63,961 nucleotides of DNA from Flavobacteriales bacterium (GTDB lineage: Bacteria > Bacteroidota > Bacteroidia > NS11-12g > UBA955). Below the pieces are notes generated by a model, which was not told the origin of the DNA, did no database searches, and was given only the letters and a program-made list of their open reading frames with translations. Of the stretch, positions 4,501-11,403 are shown one piece after another (the first letter of the stretch is position 1; each line of letters begins with the position of its first letter). The stretch is from NCBI GenBank assembly GCA_947496375.1, contig CANMCY010000014.1, positions 1 through 63,961 on the forward strand, given 5' to 3'. The position numbers and the translations under genes were made by a program.

Positions 4501-6908
4501 TCCAGCTAGGGGATGCAGGCTATGTGGCAAATTTTGTCCAAGATGCATTTTTTACAGGATATCTAAAAAGAAATAACGGAAAGGGTTTGTTCTACACCCA
4601 CAGTGCACATAAAATAGACAGCACGCGCTATGTAGAGAGTGGGGTTGCTGCATTTATGGCTAAGGAGGGTGGTAGCTTTATTACGGTAGCAGGGCGATTT
4701 AAAAGTTCGCTTGCAGGTGCAATAGTTGGCAAGCCGGGTAAGCCACTTAGAGTATTGTCAATACCAGTGGTTACAGGCACTTCAACTACTGATTATAATG
4801 GTAGTTCGGTTAAAGAATGGCTGGCAGGACTGGAGGTCTCCGGCAAGTTCAAGAATGTTGGTGGAGCATGGTCTGCTCCGGGGGGTGATAAAAAGTTGTG
4901 GTATTTGGATCAGGAATATTCTCTGGAAAGTTTTATTGAGAGTAAACTATATGACAAGGCCACATTTAATGATTTTATTACTGTTTTCACCTATCTGAGT
5001 CTTAGTGATGAAAAGCTTAATAACCTCCTAGATTGTATAGGAGATAAAGAAATAATTACCGATAGTATTTACAAACGCATAAATAGGAGAGAAAAGCAGG
5101 GTGGATATTTCAACTATAAAAAATATGTGCTGGATTTACAGGATTTATTAAAAAAATCGAGTATTGATGCAGGCGCCATAGATGTATTAAGAGGGTTAAT
5201 TAAAAGTAATGCGGATGGGGCTGCATTTGCGGGATTTTTTGCAGATCAAAAAAAATACAACCGTTGTGTATTGCGGCAATTAAATACCAAGGAGCGAATT
5301 GCCATTTTTGATAAAATCTGTGAGGATGAGAATTACTGGTGGGTAAGGGCGCAGAATGTAATGTTGGATTTGCTTGAAACCCGAGATACGAGTGCCAAAG
5401 AGCTGGAAGTGCTGTATTTGCAGGGTTTTCGAAAAAACGGATATAAATGGTTGCGTGAAGTTTGGGCGGATGAGGATGTGTTGTCATCCAGTCAACGGCA
5501 GCGGGTGCTATATGCTTTTATCGAGTTATTTACCCAAGTGGAGGCGGCGCGGACAGATCGGTTAACTCTCAGAAATGATAATTATCAGGATGATAACGGA
5601 TGGCATTCTTTCACCTATCCCGCAGGTATAAAAGAATATTACTTAGGATTATCTGACAAGGAATTCCATTATGAGGAAATGGAAGAGTTGGTTGGTGATG
5701 GAAATGGCCTGAATGGCAAAATGCTCAAAGATGGCCGTTTATATATGTATTTATCAGGTGCTTGGAGACTTCGGGGGGCTGCCCAACAGAGTTACATTTA
5801 TCAAACAGGCACAGTTTTGAAATACAATGAAACTGATGCAGAGGTATATGATGATACGTTGTGGCCATTAGAACTTATCAATGTAGTTCCATGTGGTGAT
5901 TATAAAAACATGGATGTTTTCCTTCCGGGTGAAGTAACTACGTTGCCTGTAATACTGGTGTATTTTTTAGAACGGCAGCGGCAGAAGGCGCTGGAAGAAG
6001 AGCGTGATGCAAGATTTACGCGCAGATTAATACAAGGTGTAGCACTTGTGGTGAGTGTGGCAGCAGTTCCTTTTACCGGGGGCGCCAGTCTGGCAGTAGC
6101 TAATTTGGCGCTCGTTTGCTCAGATATAGTAGTATCTGAAGTGGATGATAACATCAATGATGCCTGGATGGAAATGTCGGAAGAGGAACGCAACCGACAT
6201 AAGTCCGGCTACAATGCATGGAAAACATTTCGTGGTGGCTGGAATACGTTCAATACAGCACTGGCTGCGGGAAGTGTGGCGTCTTTAGCACGCAGCGGGG
6301 CAATAGCATTAAGTAAATATGCGGGGCTCTTGCGTGTTAATGCCCGATTCAATAACTTTGTAAAAAGCGGCTCTTCCTTTTTCGCCGCCATCAGCAAAAA
6401 GACCTTCGGAAAGCCATTTGCGGCTTTCAACCAACGGATGGGTAGGTTTCTTGGGTGGGGTGGGGCAGATGAGTATTTGTCACAATTTATTAAATCAACT
6501 GGGATTAAGGCAGTTGGTTCTTCTGATGAATTACTTAAAATTAAAGCATCTAGCTGGCAAGGGAAAGGAGATTATATGGGCATTGATAAATGGGAGATTA
6601 TAGAATTACCAGTAGGTACCAAAGTATATGGAGGGTTGCCTGGTCAGTCGGAGTTTTATACCTTTGAAAATGTGTTAATTGAATCAAATTATATTAAGGC
6701 CAAATTTTGGGAAAGCCTGCAAGTTAGACCACATTCTAGCCTTGGCCATAGACCTATTGTTGGCGAATACCATATCAAGAAAAGCATTAAAGTTGCAGTT
6801 TCAATAACCACTGCTAATTCAAAATATGGTAAAGGAGGTGCTTGGCAGGTATATATAGAAAACTATAAAGAAGTCTTAACTAAAAATATAGAAATTACTT
6901 TAAAATGA
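1548..6908 (+). CDS. Giant secreted polymorphic-toxin-like protein (Fn3, HELGH metallopeptidase-like, C-terminal toxin tip)
   Basis: From the ATG at 1548 (preferred over an upstream GTG because it opens directly into a signal peptide ending GLFGQ) the protein has 1,786 residues. In order: an unknown N-terminal region, a fibronectin-III-like domain at about 290-380, a metallopeptidase-like segment with HELGH at 851-855 followed by LEHPF, a long alpha-rich middle, a hydrophobic stretch near 1,490-1,530 (VALVVSVAAVPFTGG), and a C-terminal tip of about 130 residues with LPVGTKVYGGLPGQS and YGKGGAWQVYI. Hydrophobic pre-toxin plus variable tip plus overlapping small gene is the standard layout of polymorphic toxins; Fn3 with HELGH occurs in large Bacteroidota toxins. 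The 3' end is more AT-rich than the first 2.8 kb, which fits tip replacement by transfer. No Rhs repeats, PAAR or T9SS sorting domain is visible, so the export route is open. The tip's activity is not identified; an NAD-using fold is only a guess from its Gly-rich motifs. Confidence 0.75.
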   Translation: MSAIKHIVIWGLWVISAVGLFGQNYPIQTTVQLLPPYTPRLTELQSEPNRLSVTLLNKDLATPVVDVYLKLQLQGPGVGLQTRSGYRPLKSFTLNAGVPISINGPDMAELLQPQNLDFQGLDRNAFIRGGQLLPEGLWTISISAYSVARNLQVSNTGVVMAGLFKHKPPLLNFPFHESRAGSALPQFLPFQWTSRHYASPFAAGSIRYRFKMIELIPGSRNPNEAMLATAVPWFETFTDQTSYIYGPADPPLVPGRSYSWQVQAIDVDGSEGFENEGYSQVFSFVFGETCAAPLGIRARAEEGRTIRVSWTPIPGSGNAAYGLWYRTKGIGEWQTFMVTDTVATVGGLLPYTEYEVYVNRICIGGESPPTATITITTDASQGAWDEVSKQCGKPAPVFDMSNLQPLPSLEPGETFTAADFTIKVLSATGENGEFSGSGTVWLPFTGKVPIPCTWEHVSINTDRRMVVGMVKILRKPLVLSNLTFEKLADRWRDLFGSNWNRSEYKRIAVPVSDVEVLPDGRIRIRTTKGDEFARGGQNTVIEGPDGKRWYVSAGGKVTGPEGPPEKPVVGNESNGSGMPGSVLPDGTMVLFDNDDPNRRAWDAYNIRNQTGGSSYDRLDGPPGGYMAGWKLLATGEKETVRATLRKGKLKLHPDSIRFLRSDGVRIKSERLNDTVWKLEVPGRLHLWADAVWAVGSILPPDSVSGGSRRILGKLNLIATDERKVHVRLLPVGGSGGNISKGQLETALNAITAKFGVKTGVEVMPNMAVSGYNPQVDKISVNRMALKTSYGSDLQRFIREYEGKYRSPRSDTAVMFLLGPAADQTEGYMALNNRYGFIFCGNSPPEAHTLAHELGHGLLVLEHPFEESAEQVGKTLNLMDYRKPHALTHFQQWKRIHDKEEVGDFLRGVRQKEEEGRYVAMNVEELKPWLNPDTTFTFIDPSGNYVKVPGSIKSAVFSTFDKIGSNAYQGYVPSTCHMPFGSLITFQLGDAGYVANFVQDAFFTGYLKRNNGKGLFYTHSAHKIDSTRYVESGVAAFMAKEGGSFITVAGRFKSSLAGAIVGKPGKPLRVLSIPVVTGTSTTDYNGSSVKEWLAGLEVSGKFKNVGGAWSAPGGDKKLWYLDQEYSLESFIESKLYDKATFNDFITVFTYLSLSDEKLNNLLDCIGDKEIITDSIYKRINRREKQGGYFNYKKYVLDLQDLLKKSSIDAGAIDVLRGLIKSNADGAAFAGFFADQKKYNRCVLRQLNTKERIAIFDKICEDENYWWVRAQNVMLDLLETRDTSAKELEVLYLQGFRKNGYKWLREVWADEDVLSSSQRQRVLYAFIELFTQVEAARTDRLTLRNDNYQDDNGWHSFTYPAGIKEYYLGLSDKEFHYEEMEELVGDGNGLNGKMLKDGRLYMYLSGAWRLRGAAQQSYIYQTGTVLKYNETDAEVYDDTLWPLELINVVPCGDYKNMDVFLPGEVTTLPVILVYFLERQRQKALEEERDARFTRRLIQGVALVVSVAAVPFTGGASLAVANLALVCSDIVVSEVDDNINDAWMEMSEEERNRHKSGYNAWKTFRGGWNTFNTALAAGSVASLARSGAIALSKYAGLLRVNARFNNFVKSGSSFFAAISKKTFGKPFAAFNQRMGRFLGWGGADEYLSQFIKSTGIKAVGSSDELLKIKASSWQGKGDYMGIDKWEIIELPVGTKVYGGLPGQSEFYTFENVLIESNYIKAKFWESLQVRPHSSLGHRPIVGEYHIKKSIKVAVSITTANSKYGKGGAWQVYIENYKEVLTKNIEITLK

Positions 6909-7150
6909 ATGAAGTAAAAATAATTGAAGGAAGTCCAGTATGTGATCCAATAGATAAATTATTAACACAGCTTGACTTAATGGGGGTTAATTATTTTAAT
7001 GCTATATTAGAGGATTATCATTTTAAACAGTTGCATTTTAAATTCAAACAAGATATAAAAATAGTTGAAAATTTTGATTTATCTGAATTTATCATCAAAG
7101 AAAATAAATTAATATGTAAGTGCCATTGGAGTGTTTTGGAATTTGAATAG
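6905..7150 (+). CDS. Putative immunity protein for the upstream toxin
   Basis: This is an 81-residue protein without signal peptide or membrane segment, so it should stay in the cytoplasm. Its ATG overlaps the toxin stop codon as ATGA, giving translational coupling, which is how immunity genes are normally linked to contact-dependent toxins. The sequence (many Ile, Phe, Asp and Lys) matches no family I recognise. The immunity role is inferred only from size, position and coupling. Its low GC matches the toxin tip, suggesting the pair moved together. Confidence 0.6.
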   Translation: MNEVKIIEGSPVCDPIDKLLTQLDLMGVNYFNAILEDYHFKQLHFKFKQDIKIVENFDLSEFIIKENKLICKCHWSVLEFE

Positions 7151-7156
7151 TGAAAT

Positions 7157-8362
7157 ATGTCAATTAAGTGGACTAGAGATAGAATTACTTTAGAGGCCAA
7201 AAAGTATAATTCACATACAGATTTTTGGAAAGGCGCTGCTCAAGCCGTAAAAGTAGCAAAGCGAGATAATTATTATAACGAAATCACCAAGCACTTTAAG
7301 GGAAAATTAGTTAAGCACACCAAGGAAAGTTGCATTGAAGCAGCCTTACTATGCAAAACAAAAGAGGAATTTAAAAAAAAATATAGGAATCAACATGCAT
7401 CCGCACTGCACAACGGGTGGTATAAAGATTGTACATCACACATGCCCAAAAATTCCCAATTCAAGTTTAAGGAAAGCAAATCTAATTGTTTAAATGCTGC
7501 TTTGAAATGCAATACAATGAGCCAGTTTATTAAAGATTTCCCAGGTGCTTATAATCAAGCAAAAAAAGGTGGTTTTTTAAATGAAATATCAGCTCATTTT
7601 GAGGTTAAGGGAAATATCTTATTAAGATTATTATACATTGCAAAATTTAGTGACAATTCAATATACATTGGTTTAACTTCTGATTTTAAGAGAAGAGTAC
7701 AACAACATTTGGATTTGACATCTAATAAAAAAAGCACTGTATTGAAACACTATGCAAGAACTAAAAACATACCACAATTTTATCAAATAAGTAATTTAAT
7801 GCCTGCTTTGCATGCTAAGATAATTGAGCAAAAATTAATCACAATATTTAGTTCATTAGAATCTGTAAAATTATTAAATATAAATTCAGGCGGAGGTTTA
7901 GGTGGCGCCAGAATTTTACGCAAAATAACATTTGACGAAATTCAATCCACAATTGCGGATGGGGGAATTAAAACGCAGCGTATGTTAAAGCGCTTGCATA
8001 GAACGCTTTACACGGTTGCAAAAAATAGAAACTGGTTAAATTTGCTTATCCCCAAGAGGATAGCAACTATTAATAGTAAAGCGCAATGCCTTGAAAAAGC
8101 ACTAGTTTGTAATTCAAAACAGGAATTTTATACTAAATATAGAGCTGCCTATAATTGGGCAAAAAAAAATATGTGTTTTGAAGAAGTAACCTCTCATATG
8201 ATTAGTGCCAATAAGAAATGGACTTTTCAAACAGTAATGAATCAAGCGTTAGCTTATTCAAGTTTTACAGAATTTGCCAAAAATAATCAACGGGCTGTTT
8301 TTGTGGCGCGCAGAGATGGATACTTGAATGATATAAAGAAGGCACTGCTTGAAAAAACGTAG
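7157..8362 (+). CDS. GIY-YIG nuclease-like protein with six flanking repeats
   Basis: The 401-residue protein starts 6 bp after the putative immunity gene. Residues about 157-245 are a GIY-YIG domain: Y160-I, then Y170-I-G, an RR pair at 179-180, H184, and a candidate catalytic Glu at 224. On each side are three copies of a roughly 45-residue unit (about 5-47, 55-96, 106-148, 256-300, 305-347, 353-397) with the pattern W or C...EA...C.(S/T)..EF....A...A...G(W/F)...I..H(M/F). Similar units occur beside GIY-YIG or HNH domains in phage homing-type proteins, where they probably bind DNA. The gene is very AT-rich and Lys/Asn-rich, unlike the core genes, which suggests transfer. It could be a homing-type endonuclease that mobilises the toxin locus, or a passenger. 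No stop codons or frameshifts interrupt it. Confidence 0.75.
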   Translation: MSIKWTRDRITLEAKKYNSHTDFWKGAAQAVKVAKRDNYYNEITKHFKGKLVKHTKESCIEAALLCKTKEEFKKKYRNQHASALHNGWYKDCTSHMPKNSQFKFKESKSNCLNAALKCNTMSQFIKDFPGAYNQAKKGGFLNEISAHFEVKGNILLRLLYIAKFSDNSIYIGLTSDFKRRVQQHLDLTSNKKSTVLKHYARTKNIPQFYQISNLMPALHAKIIEQKLITIFSSLESVKLLNINSGGGLGGARILRKITFDEIQSTIADGGIKTQRMLKRLHRTLYTVAKNRNWLNLLIPKRIATINSKAQCLEKALVCNSKQEFYTKYRAAYNWAKKNMCFEEVTSHMISANKKWTFQTVMNQALAYSSFTEFAKNNQRAVFVARRDGYLNDIKKALLEKT

Positions 8363-8374
8363 TTTTACCCCCGC

Positions 8375-8389
8375 TGCCCGAATTGGGCA
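8375..8389. repeat. Short hairpin upstream of the transposase gene
   Basis: TGCCC, a 5-nt loop GAATT, and GGGCA form a five-pair stem in the 65-bp gap between the GIY-YIG gene and the REP transposase. No T-run follows closely, so it is a poor terminator and may be a degenerate REP-type hairpin. Confidence 0.4.
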
Positions 8390-8427
8390 CCTTTTACCTA
8401 CACGCTACCTCTTTATAAATCATTAAA

Positions 8428-8994
8428 ATGCACACAGGATATATCATCAGAAACCAGGACCGCCCCCATTTTATAACATGTACCGTAGTTAACTGGATTG
8501 ATGTGTTTACAAGAAAGTCAAACAGAAATATTATTATAGATTCACTGGCTTATTGTATCAAAGAAAAAGGCATGATACTGTATGGGTATGTTATTATGAG
8601 TAACTATATTCATTTAATTGTTCAATCGTCAAAAGGCAAAATATCAGAACTTATAAGGGATTTTAAAAAGTTTACAGCAACCCAAATATTGCAGGCCATA
8701 CAAAACGAGCCGGAAAGTAGAAGAGAATGGATGATGGAGTTGTTTAGCAAAGCAACTGAAACACATATCAGAAATACAAACTATCAATTCTGGAAATACG
8801 GAAATCATCCTGAAGAAATTTATTCATCGCGTTTCTTATGGGTTAAATTAAACCATATACACCAGAACCCTGTGCATGCCGGAATTGTCGCTATGGCAGA
8901 GTACTATGTTTATTCATCGGCAAGCAATTATGCCCAAGGCAAAGGGCTGTTGGCGGTGGTGCTTGTTGATGGTTATTTGGATGCTATTGGTTAG
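8428..8994 (+). CDS. REP-associated tyrosine transposase (Y1/HUH family) with altered active site
   Basis: The 188-residue product fits the RAYT branch of the IS200/IS605 superfamily: FITCTVVNWIDVF at the start, YGYVIMSNYIHLIV in the middle, then IRDFKKFTA, NHPEEI and NHIHQNPVHAGIV. RAYTs nick and join single-stranded REP hairpins using an HUH metal site and one tyrosine. Here the first HUH histidine is Tyr (Y60-I-H62, codon TAT), and the usual catalytic Tyr of the (D/N)YIHxNPV motif is His (H143, codon CAT). Both key positions are therefore changed, each by a one-base exchange. The frame is intact and the length normal, so the gene is not obviously decayed, but ordinary chemistry seems unlikely. 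REP-like hairpins lie just downstream. Confidence 0.85.
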   Translation: MHTGYIIRNQDRPHFITCTVVNWIDVFTRKSNRNIIIDSLAYCIKEKGMILYGYVIMSNYIHLIVQSSKGKISELIRDFKKFTATQILQAIQNEPESRREWMMELFSKATETHIRNTNYQFWKYGNHPEEIYSSRFLWVKLNHIHQNPVHAGIVAMAEYYVYSSASNYAQGKGLLAVVLVDGYLDAIG

Positions 8995-9015
8995 GGATAT
9001 AAATAGTGCTTAAAA

Positions 9016-9041
9016 GGGGCCCGAAGTCGGGAGACTTCGGG
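9016..9041. repeat. REP-like hairpin CCCGAAGTC/GACTTCGGG, copy 1
   Basis: CCCGAAGTC at 9020-9028, a 4-nt loop GGGA, and GACTTCGGG at 9033-9041 form a nine-pair perfect stem 25 bp after the transposase stop codon. The 13-mer GGGGCCCGAAGTC at 9016-9028 returns as its reverse complement at 10,349-10,361, and the whole hairpin returns inverted at 11,157-11,178. Position and structure fit a REP hairpin served by a RAYT. Confidence 0.8.
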
Positions 9042-9056
9042 AAGCTAATTGCCAGC

Positions 9057-10241
9057 TTAATGTTTAAAATTAAAATTGCTTAGATTTATAATGTTATTGT
9101 ATACGTCATTTATATCATATCCCTTTTCAACATATAATAATTGACATCCATGCTTTTGGGCAAGTTCTCTTTTTCTTTTATCTCGCAATATGTTTTTTTG
9201 GAATGCATCATTGCCTCCAAAATATTCAACAGACTCAAAGTGTTGTTCCCCTTGATATTCTATAGCAATATTTAACAAAGGGAAATAAATATCGAAATGT
9301 TGTCGGCCTAACCAGCTGGTTTTCCCATGTTGAAGAACAACATGGTTTGAAAATATATCTTTTAATTGATAGTATAATTTAGTTTCGCTTATCCAGCCTT
9401 CACCAATTCTCGGTAGGCCAAGACTTGTTCTCAATTTATTTAAAGGTTCATTTATTTCTTCAATATAAATGTCCATCAAATCTTTATTTATTAGATATTG
9501 AGTTGGTGTTAAATTCAACTCATTAATTAGGCTATTTATGAGTATAGGCTCATTTGTAGGGCTGTCCTTGAATGCAAACTTTAATAATTGAATTTTATTC
9601 TCTTCTCCATTGTCTCCAGTTAGAATAGAATACAAATCTGCGTTCCTTAAAAGCCCAAAAAGTCCATTTTCAGTAAAATTTAATAATTTTGATTTTATTT
9701 CATTTGGGTGTTTAGGTCCAAATCTATTAAATTGAGCCAGATATTTATTAAATCCATTCTTATATACTAAATCAAGTGCTATCCAAAGTTTTTTAACATG
9801 TCCTCTTATGTGAAAGCGTTTTATGTGCGACTCTACAGAATTTATGTAAAAACTTTCGAGTAGATTAAAATTATCTACTACAAGTTCTCGTAAGTTGATG
9901 GGTATAGATCTTGGGGTGAAATAGTACCAAACATAATGAGAATCTATATAGTCTAATTTTTTACCTAATTCAGCCCAATATTTATTATGAAGATAATTAA
10001 GTCTATAATCAATAAAGTCATTATCTCTATATACAGAATAGTTTGAGTTAATACCATTTTTTAGTGAATCTGAAATATATTCGAAAAGATTACTATTTTT
10101 GAAATTAGAACTTTGATATTTCAAGGGGAATAATTTTGAATAAATCTTTGTATATTTTAAGTCAAGCATTTCAAAATTATTTAAAAAGAAGCTTTTACAA
10201 TGCTCATTCATTTTTTTAGTATAAAAATCGAACTCCCCCAT
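9057..10241 (-). CDS. Uncharacterised protein with PD-(D/E)XK nuclease-like C-terminus
   Basis: The 394-residue protein has no signal peptide. Its first 280 residues match nothing I recognise and are rich in Asn, Lys, Tyr and Leu. The last 110 look like a Vsr/restriction-type nuclease fold: SETKLYYQLKDIF, then LGRQHFDIYFP with the likely catalytic Asp near residue 317, IEYQGEQHF with a Glu eleven residues later, FGG, a DKRK basic patch and a short final strand (CQLLYVEKG). The IEYQGEQHF block is conserved in several bacterial endonuclease-like families. It lies alone on the minus strand, is AT-rich, and is bracketed by inverted copies of a 13-bp REP-type sequence, so it may be mobile cargo. 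No methylase is nearby, so an ordinary restriction system is unlikely. Confidence 0.6.
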   Translation of the reverse strand: MGEFDFYTKKMNEHCKSFFLNNFEMLDLKYTKIYSKLFPLKYQSSNFKNSNLFEYISDSLKNGINSNYSVYRDNDFIDYRLNYLHNKYWAELGKKLDYIDSHYVWYYFTPRSIPINLRELVVDNFNLLESFYINSVESHIKRFHIRGHVKKLWIALDLVYKNGFNKYLAQFNRFGPKHPNEIKSKLLNFTENGLFGLLRNADLYSILTGDNGEENKIQLLKFAFKDSPTNEPILINSLINELNLTPTQYLINKDLMDIYIEEINEPLNKLRTSLGLPRIGEGWISETKLYYQLKDIFSNHVVLQHGKTSWLGRQHFDIYFPLLNIAIEYQGEQHFESVEYFGGNDAFQKNILRDKRKRELAQKHGCQLLYVEKGYDINDVYNNIINLSNFNFKH

Positions 10242-10348
10242 TTTAAGTTTTTAGTATTTAAATTCAAAAATATGTAATAATCTACAGAATCACCACCACC
10301 AAGCTCCGCTCACTAAAGTCATCCGAATCCGGTTTTCAATAGCCATTG

Positions 10349-10361
10349 GACTTCGGGCCCC
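10349..10361. repeat. Inverted 13-bp copy of the REP arm
   Basis: GACTTCGGGCCCC is the exact reverse complement of GGGGCCCGAAGTC at 9016-9028. The two copies flank the nuclease-like gene. Only one arm of the hairpin is present; a partial match, AACTTCGGT, follows at 10,370. Confidence 0.7.
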
Positions 10362-10445
10362 ATATAACCCAACTTCGGTACTCATAACTTCCCAGTTTTC
10401 CCTCCAACCACTTGCTTTTTATAAAAAATGCTGTTTTTTTGAAGC

Positions 10446-11135
10446 ATGTTAAAAGCCCATGCCGGAATTATGTTGTTCGTGTTTTTGAGCGGTGCGCTCA
10501 GAACCTGCGTGAAAGAAGGGGCTGCCGTGCGTTCAGAAGCTAAAGCGGCCGCTGCAGAATCTAAGGCATTCAGCGAATCGGCTGCCGGAATGAAGGGAGC
10601 CGCTGATGACTTGCATTACCTCAGTGCCGCCGAAAAACAAGTGATCACCGAGCATAATTCTACCCTGAAATCCATTGAGGAATCTGCCATATTAAAGGAA
10701 GAAAAAATCAATTGGGAAGAATTTGTGGCGGAAAAAATAGAGGATGAAATGTGGGATAGACTGAAGGAATGGGGCTATGAACAAGCAGATGAATGGATGG
10801 TTACACGGCAGGCCGCCAAGGCAGTAGCATTCAGTAAAAACGGTGATGTGCTCTGCAAGATGATCCAACATAAATACAATAAAGTTCGCATAAGCCGCGA
10901 TAATTTGTATGATTTATTAACGGGCAATAAGGTAGATGACTTGGAAATAGCCAAGCTCAAAAGAATACGTGTGCTGTATATGTTTTCCGATGATTATGCG
11001 GCCTGGATTCTGGCACGGTTGGTCAAACGCAGTGAATGTGACCCTGACAAAATGGATGCATTACGCAATATTGCCGGCGAACGAAAAATCCAAAACGATG
11101 GACGCCTAATCAGGGCGCTCAATTCCTGTGAATAA
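10446..11135 (+). CDS. Hypothetical exported or membrane-anchored helical protein
   Basis: The 229-residue product begins with a hydrophobic stretch (AGIMLFVFLSGAL) that could be a signal peptide or anchor; the Cys at residue 21 follows Thr rather than a small lipobox residue, so a lipoprotein call is weak. After it comes an Ala/Glu/Lys-rich helical segment (about 28-60), then a mostly helical, charged region without recognisable motifs. Its base composition is close to the chromosomal average, unlike the AT-rich genes to its left. It is flanked by REP-type repeats on both sides. No family recognised. Confidence 0.55.
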   Translation: MLKAHAGIMLFVFLSGALRTCVKEGAAVRSEAKAAAAESKAFSESAAGMKGAADDLHYLSAAEKQVITEHNSTLKSIEESAILKEEKINWEEFVAEKIEDEMWDRLKEWGYEQADEWMVTRQAAKAVAFSKNGDVLCKMIQHKYNKVRISRDNLYDLLTGNKVDDLEIAKLKRIRVLYMFSDDYAAWILARLVKRSECDPDKMDALRNIAGERKIQNDGRLIRALNSCE

Positions 11136-11156: not shown

Positions 11157-11178
11157 CCCGAAGTCTCCCGACTTCGGG
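11157..11178. repeat. REP-like hairpin CCCGAAGTC/GACTTCGGG, copy 2 (inverted)
   Basis: CCCGAAGTC, loop TCCC, GACTTCGGG is the same nine-pair hairpin as at 9020-9041, but with the loop reverse complemented (TCCC against GGGA), so the element is inverted. It lies 21 bp after the stop of the hypothetical gene. Confidence 0.8.
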
Positions 11179-11230
11179 CTTTATAAACAATCCGTCTTTC
11201 AACCTTAATGTATTTTAATTGCTCCCTTCG

Positions 11231-11270
11231 CTCCCCATAGCATGGGGTTTAAACCCCATGCTATGGGGAG
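11231..11270. repeat. Perfect 40-bp palindrome (REP-like), copy 2
   Basis: Two 20-nt arms meet at TTTAAA. The central 22 bp equal those of the 281-324 palindrome. Outside the core one base pair differs (A-T here, C-G there), with both partners changed, so pairing is kept. Confidence 0.9.
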
Positions 11271-11403
11271 CTTTGCCGAAGTCTACAACCACTTGCCTCA
11301 TTCTGCGAATGAGGTTTTTTATTGAGCGCATCCTCCCTTGACCAAGCTCAGATGTGGGGATTAGCTCCTTCGTTGCTGAACCCTACTTTGCCGAAGTCTA
11401 CAA
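11271..11403. repeat. 18-bp direct repeat pair around a terminator
   Basis: CTTTGCCGAAGTCTACAA occurs exactly at 11,271-11,288 and again at 11,386-11,403, 115 bp apart. The first copy abuts the 40-bp palindrome. CCGAAGTC within it resembles the REP arm. The whole gap from 11,135 to 11,530 has no credible gene; it holds repeats and hairpins only. Confidence 0.7.
11296..11320 (+). terminator. Rho-independent terminator
   Basis: CCTCATTC, loop TGC, GAATGAGG and six T form a strong intrinsic terminator. It would end transcripts entering from the hypothetical gene at 10,446 and lies between the two 18-bp direct repeats. Confidence 0.7.

Follow-up and report, generated by a model that had tools for sequence, protein, structure and literature searches.

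A gene of the RAYT (TnpA-REP) family at positions 8428-8994 of the window, by which we refer to the whole 63,961-nucleotide stretch of the Flavobacteriales contig CANMCY010000014.1 that was analysed, encodes a tyrosine in place of a catalytic-site histidine and a histidine in place of the catalytic tyrosine. We think it probable that this gene and its hairpins represent a once-active RAYT/REP unit that was recently inactivated, in which the reciprocal nature of the two changes is most likely a coincidence. The enzyme is very probably dead, and the loss of its activity, the order of events and their recency are what we infer, whereas the homology, the alignment columns, the flanking REPs and the highest number of changes at invariant positions among the relatives were observed directly. 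The ancestor would have been a functional RAYT of the type present in Flavobacteriia, forming a RAYT/REP unit with cognate REP hairpins, the same hairpin having been dispersed through the window genome. The exchange would then constitute two of a handful of substitutions that arose when selection on transposition was recently lost, or subsequently, with the left REP apparently also losing the apex of its hairpin. A catalytically dead RAYT lying beside its own REP family, and caught ahead of frame breakage, would be informative in that such cases show the fate of a REP population once its transposase dies, and it cautions that an active RAYT should not be read from an open frame plus a family match.

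The RAYT frame and its active site

The open reading frame at 8428-8994 (+) encodes 188 amino acids, without a stop codon or frameshift. Its product matched the Y1_Tnp domain (PF01797) with 28.6 bits relative to a cut-off of 23, and the NCBIfam RAYT model NF047646 with 77.5 bits, slightly under the cut-off of 80. An AlphaFold model built from an alignment of relatives had a mean pLDDT of 92, and the PDB entry most like it was 4er8, the E. coli TnpA-REP. Like that protein, the window RAYT has the Y1_Tnp domain and fold, H62, N147-P148 and the YSSAS motif, together with a flanking REP hairpin carrying a 5' GCT tag and further dispersed REPs; unlike it, the first HUH histidine and the tyrosine are substituted, the NF047646 score is below cut-off and the left REP is apparently truncated. 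The TnpA proteins of IS200/IS605 share the HUH Y1 superfamily fold, but their match to the window RAYT was weak (NF033573, 19.5 bits with a cut-off of 55). The protein is a RAYT by descent, and, judged from its sequence on the defining features tested (HUH motif and catalytic tyrosine), it would not class as a functional RAYT.

The first-pass annotation had reported an open frame with Y60 (TAT) and H143 (CAT), each one base away from the residue expected, and the frame, the coordinates and both codons were borne out. Residues 59-62 read NYIH and residues 142-149 read NHIHQNPV, such that YIH occupies the place of the HUH motif and HIHQNP the place of a tyrosine preceding xxxNP, whilst the metal-site asparagine and proline (N147-P148) are present. 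When 38 relatives sharing 58% identity or more, drawn from 63 loci of a genome-contig scan, were aligned with it, the motif columns that had been assigned were likewise upheld. At codon 60 (8605-8607, +), the first HUH histidine, all 38 relatives encode His (CAT or CAC), and at codon 143 (8854-8856, +) all 38 encode Tyr; each change is a single transition from codons seen in the relatives (CAT to TAT and TAT to CAT, respectively). The second HUH histidine, codon 62 (8611-8613, +), is kept in the window and in 37 of the relatives, with Gln in the remaining one, and codon 147 (8866-8868, +), equivalent in a profile alignment to the metal-site residue N119 of E. coli TnpA-REP, is Asn throughout. 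Codon 150 (8875-8877, +) encodes His in the window and Arg in every relative. In the family profile, columns 60 and 143 aligned with the HUH region and with the Tyr115/Asn119 segment of E. coli TnpA-REP in 4er8, for which residue numbers were counted by hand on the printed alignment.

A shift of the catalytic tyrosine to the nearby YY or YVY at 159-162 was considered and rejected, as these residues belong to the separate YSSAS motif, the Y162 of which is invariant in alignment A1, and as a tyrosine aligns at 143 in all 38 relatives. Assignment to a RAYT subclass was also attempted. The motif tabulated for subclass 2.6 in PMC6006769 is YIH[QN]NP, and most of the relatives read YIHLNP, which is not that of 2.6, whilst their length does not fit subclass 2.1 of the same table; no subclass was therefore assigned. 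Features absent from the first-pass annotation were D9N, L72I and R150H, all at positions invariant in the family, and the REP hairpins on either side of the gene.

In TnpA-REP, according to PMC8266576, the tyrosine can attack DNA, and so yield a 5'-phosphotyrosine, only with the metal that the HUH histidines coordinate, and the mutants Y115F, Y130F and Y125F were inactive in cleavage or in cleavage and strand-transfer assays; N119 is given as a metal-site residue in PMC6006769. With Tyr143 gone, the window protein would lack the nucleophile that forms the 5'-phosphotyrosine intermediate; with His60 gone, its metal site would be incomplete. As both residues are changed, the canonical cleavage reaction should not occur.

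REP hairpins beside the gene and across the genome

To the right of the gene, a perfect REP hairpin with a 9-bp stem and a 4-nt loop was identified at 9020-9041 (-), with the structure CCCGAAGTC-loop-GACTTCGGG (z -4.77; 0 of 200 shuffles). Read along the minus strand, GCTT (9045-9042) comes directly before it. The tag of GCT plus one base differs from the GTAG described for E. coli. To the left, an apparent REP remnant composed of GCTG, CCCGAA and TTGGG at 8373-8387 (+) equals the REP minus an 11-nt apex; no match of this kind arose in 400 shuffles of the 65-nt gap or in 392 random pieces of the window, using a template set that was picked after the site had been seen.

Hairpins with an AAGTC or GACTT core were present within 200 nt of 35 of the 38 relatives. 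They occurred on both sides of the gene in 18 cases (14 of these being a GCT-tagged inverted pair), downstream only in 12, including the closest relative, and upstream only in five, and where an upstream hairpin was present its distance was comparable to that of the left remnant in the window. These relatives, RAYTs of Chryseobacterium, Flavobacterium and other Flavobacteriia with identities of approximately 60-72% (the highest being that of Cloacibacterium normanense, locus L002, with 72%), differ from the window in retaining H60 and Y143 without exception, and in the arms of their REPs, for instance GCGCAAAGTC in place of the arm in the window. The apparent damage to the left REP is suggestive of the death of the unit but no proof of it, and with 12 of 38 relatives having a downstream hairpin only, a broken left REP weighs less as a sign of death.

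The RAYT gene is single in the window genome, and its cognate REPs are dispersed, with 16 places (including the right REP) matching at three or fewer mismatches, in comparison to one for a reversed control pattern; 14 of the 16 were preceded by GCT plus one base. A further copy lies in the window at 11157-11178 (+), downstream of the open reading frame at 10446-11135, and is missing from the loci of the matching gene in the four other genus members that were compared. A second long palindrome at 11230-11271 of the window, which resembles copies at G000:C4:132876-132911 and at G000:C14:286-319, possibly belongs to another REP or terminator family.

Rarity of the exchange, conservation and selection

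The relatives sharing the same exchange that had been sought on the basis of the first-pass annotation did not emerge from the surveys or the aligned stretches. When a sequence pattern was searched with the tyrosine codon left free, 49 places were recovered in 38 of the 395 genomes of the class, with His in the window and Tyr at the other 48 (codons read by eye from the printed matches); when the first HUH codon was left free, 49 places were recovered in 41 of the 395, with Tyr in the window and His at the other 48. The places in these surveys are pattern matches and hence putative RAYTs. Because the patterns are exact, divergent or decayed copies escape them, which biases the surveys towards intact motifs. 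In 395 genomes of the phylum, a pattern that demanded His in place of the tyrosine recovered the window and one other place (L101), and the latter was discarded as a second case, there being no RAYT-like frame, by eye, among its open reading frames of at least 110 amino acids. Amongst 87 aligned stretches longer than 120 residues, 83 had HHYN at positions 60, 62, 143 and 147, the window had YHHN, and there was one each of RHYN (with a stop), HQYN and HHYK. Shorter pieces were omitted from this count, including those of L063, which is frame-broken and has Tyr at column 60 with Tyr still at 143, and of L064, which has Tyr at column 60, also lacks the second histidine and matches over residues 1-66 only. 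Across the aligned stretches, the class surveys and the phylum pattern search, only the window RAYT harboured both changes. No instance of the exchange was detected in viral contigs, a plasmid search returned five records that were each less than 60% identical to the window RAYT, and the exchange was not found among the titles and abstract openings of the literature retrieved.

That the two residues compensate for each other, as had been suggested, was not supported by these searches, in which no other sequence had both changes, nor by the nearby R150, which is invariant in the relatives and is changed as well. A working swapped HUH site, with His143 acting as nucleophile or base and Tyr60 forming part of the metal site, would, if truly functional, add a novel type of active site to the HUH enzymes, yet the evidence does not lead in that direction and we regard it as highly improbable. 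The changes are exactly reciprocal, H62 and N147 of the metal site are kept, and Tdp1, a protein of different fold, forms a covalent DNA complex by way of two catalytic histidines according to the abstract of PMC9876888. However, the tyrosine-to-phenylalanine mutants of TnpA-REP were inactive (PMC8266576), no second example was found in the 87 aligned stretches or the class surveys, and R150H, D9N and L72I would be left unexplained. Moreover, in the AlphaFold model a strand begins at residue 60 and residue 143 is within a helix, so that a swap need not restore the original geometry.

As the exchange was seen in one genome only, with no close copy in other genomes of the genus to serve as an independent read, a sequencing or assembly error behind one or both codons was also considered, and we regard it as highly improbable. 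Two separate single-base errors falling on two catalytic codons would be unlikely in an assembly stated to be 99.99% complete and 0.05% contaminated, and three further invariant columns differ too.

With respect to columns that are invariant in the other sequences, the window RAYT differed at five of 50 (D9N, H60Y, L72I, Y143H and R150H), the highest count of the 39 sequences; L034 differed at three of 48 (H62Q included), two sequences at two, eight at one and 27 at none. This excess of changes at family-invariant positions, in a sequence that also has the longest terminal branch in the tree, is as expected from decay. At columns conserved in 90% or more of sequences the window again differed most (10 of 81), followed by L030 (9 of 84) and L029 (6 of 84), a count that is weak by itself, as it may partly reflect branch length, the terminal branch of the window being the longest; L030 reaches its nine on a shorter branch.

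Damage to relatives, which the first-pass annotation had named as a sign of simple decay if it took the form of random substitutions and frameshifts, was encountered to some extent: in-frame stops interrupt L006 and L024, L063 is frame-broken, and L034, a RAYT of Flavobacterium xinjiangense (950-1483), carries H62Q with its frame intact across the aligned part. The last of these lost a catalytic residue independently and so makes a second such case. Like the window RAYT, it is frame-intact, lacks one active-site histidine and has additional changes at invariant columns; unlike it, the other histidine has been lost, the tyrosine is kept and its neutral phase is significant (see below). In Epilithonimonas hispanica, repeated partial copies of the C-terminal part of the RAYT were observed behind the gene (L007, 2074-2429).

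In a branch model, omega on the long terminal branch of the window was 0.021. This differs from 1 (LRT 77.7), indicating that most of the branch was under strong constraint, and it was not distinguishable from the background of 0.049 (LRT 3.00). The dN/dS comparison that had been proposed therefore returned a low value which does not set the window apart from its relatives. A test with a single omega per branch says nothing about what happened recently, and convergence failed for at least one tip (L039). In a second test, four site classes were employed and each terminal branch was allowed to end in a neutral phase; the window was among the sequences used to fit the site-class parameters, and no correction was applied across the 39 tests. 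The best fit for the window was a neutral phase of 0.043 substitutions per codon, or approximately 7.5 changes over 175 codons, which was not significant (LRT 1.94, sixth of the 39 tips) and had an upper bound of approximately 0.13 substitutions per codon, interpolated from the profile. The sites most in favour of this phase were 60, 143, 72, 150 and 9. Of the other tips, L034 had an LRT of 24.0, L028, without a catalytic change, 5.82, and L018 3.54, whilst the stop-bearing L024 and L006 had 2.46 and 0.00, respectively; given that L006 contains a stop and nonetheless scored 0.00, the test is poorly able to detect a very recent loss. These results agree with a recent loss of constraint but not with a long one, and they are also compatible with none having occurred.

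Several observations speak against decay, namely the open frame, the low omega, the non-significant neutral phase, the well-folding model and the a priori unlikely reciprocity. With so few changes, of which approximately 4% would be nonsense if they fell on codons at random, a stop would not be anticipated, so that the open frame says little for retention, and the clear neutral phase of L034 indicates that early decay can be under way in a frame-intact RAYT that has lost a catalytic residue. Once one of the two changes is in place, the other specific transition would be among 7.5 random ones with a probability of approximately 0.6%, a figure that applies to an exchange spotted after the fact.

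The first-pass annotation had alternatively proposed an enzyme that is dead but kept, of which the former part is well supported, by inference from the inactive tyrosine-to-phenylalanine mutants and the changed metal histidine, and the latter gains little from the open frame, the estimated unconstrained time being too short for stops to be anticipated and the count of invariant-column deviations being the highest of the 39 sequences. In such a case the protein would be a nuclease-dead but retained binder of REP hairpins, serving, for example, as a repressor of REP mobility, a factor acting on the nucleoid or on transcript ends, or an inhibitor of other RAYTs. We consider this doubtful, though clearly less far-fetched than a swapped site. 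It would accommodate the open frame, the low branch omega, the neutral phase that did not reach significance and the 16 cognate hairpins in the genome. Furthermore, hairpin binding may persist, in that columns 124-132 of the window RAYT have the commonest or co-commonest residue at every column; the counterpart of this segment in E. coli TnpA-REP, residues 96-104, takes in positions that make contact with the REP tag according to PMC8266576. Nevertheless, an intact frame would be expected anyway after so recent a loss, and the changes extend to D9, L72 and R150, which are invariant and non-catalytic. The gene is also single, with only one match, at 32% identity, in the six other genomes of the genus (E <= 1e-8), and its active-site state occurs in no other sequence examined. 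Recent inactivation of a once-active unit is hence the reading that we favour.

Genus comparison and neighbouring sequence

Apart from that one match, the window RAYT had no counterpart in the six other genomes of its genus at that threshold, and searches for a closer relative in its genus, family and order (7, 70 and 108 genomes, respectively, its own included) returned identities of 54% at most, with the own-order matches at E <= 1e-30 having only 40-54%. As there was no close relative within the order, the long window branch could not be broken up. In the tree, the window sequence branches beside the 38 relatives, with support of 0.93 for all 39 and of 0.78 for the 38.

The REP hairpin was found in G001 alone among the six other genomes of the genus, at nine places. 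A RAYT of the window type was sought in G001 and none was found, an absence that is uncertain in an assembly of 420 contigs; its sole profile match was a more distant protein that has a counterpart in the window genome. This distant RAYT-like gene, with the motifs NHFH and YIHRNPV and similar neighbouring open reading frames, was observed in both G000 (contig C1, L082) and G001 (L102), and is apparently common to the two genomes by descent. With regard to the REPs themselves, the one at C21:2526 of the window genome adjoins sequence common to a REP region of G001, and that at C20:33810 is within a stretch whose left and right flanks are both shared with a G001 REP region. From approximately 6461 to 10416 of the window, no nucleotide match was detected in the six other genomes of the genus (E <= 1e-5). 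The REP family thus looks to predate the species in part and to be lineage-specific in part, whilst the stretch bearing the RAYT may be private to the window genome.

Pfam searches of four neighbouring open reading frames revealed no TnpB. Directly upstream of the RAYT, and within the stretch that had no nucleotide matches in the genus, a 401-amino-acid frame at 7157-8362 (+) has a weak GIY-YIG match (24.8 bits, cut-off 22.6). On the other side, a frame of 394 amino acids at 9057-10241 (-) had no Pfam match at E 0.001, and its C-terminal part has, by eye, the look of what we presume to be a PD-(D/E)XK or Vsr-type nuclease.
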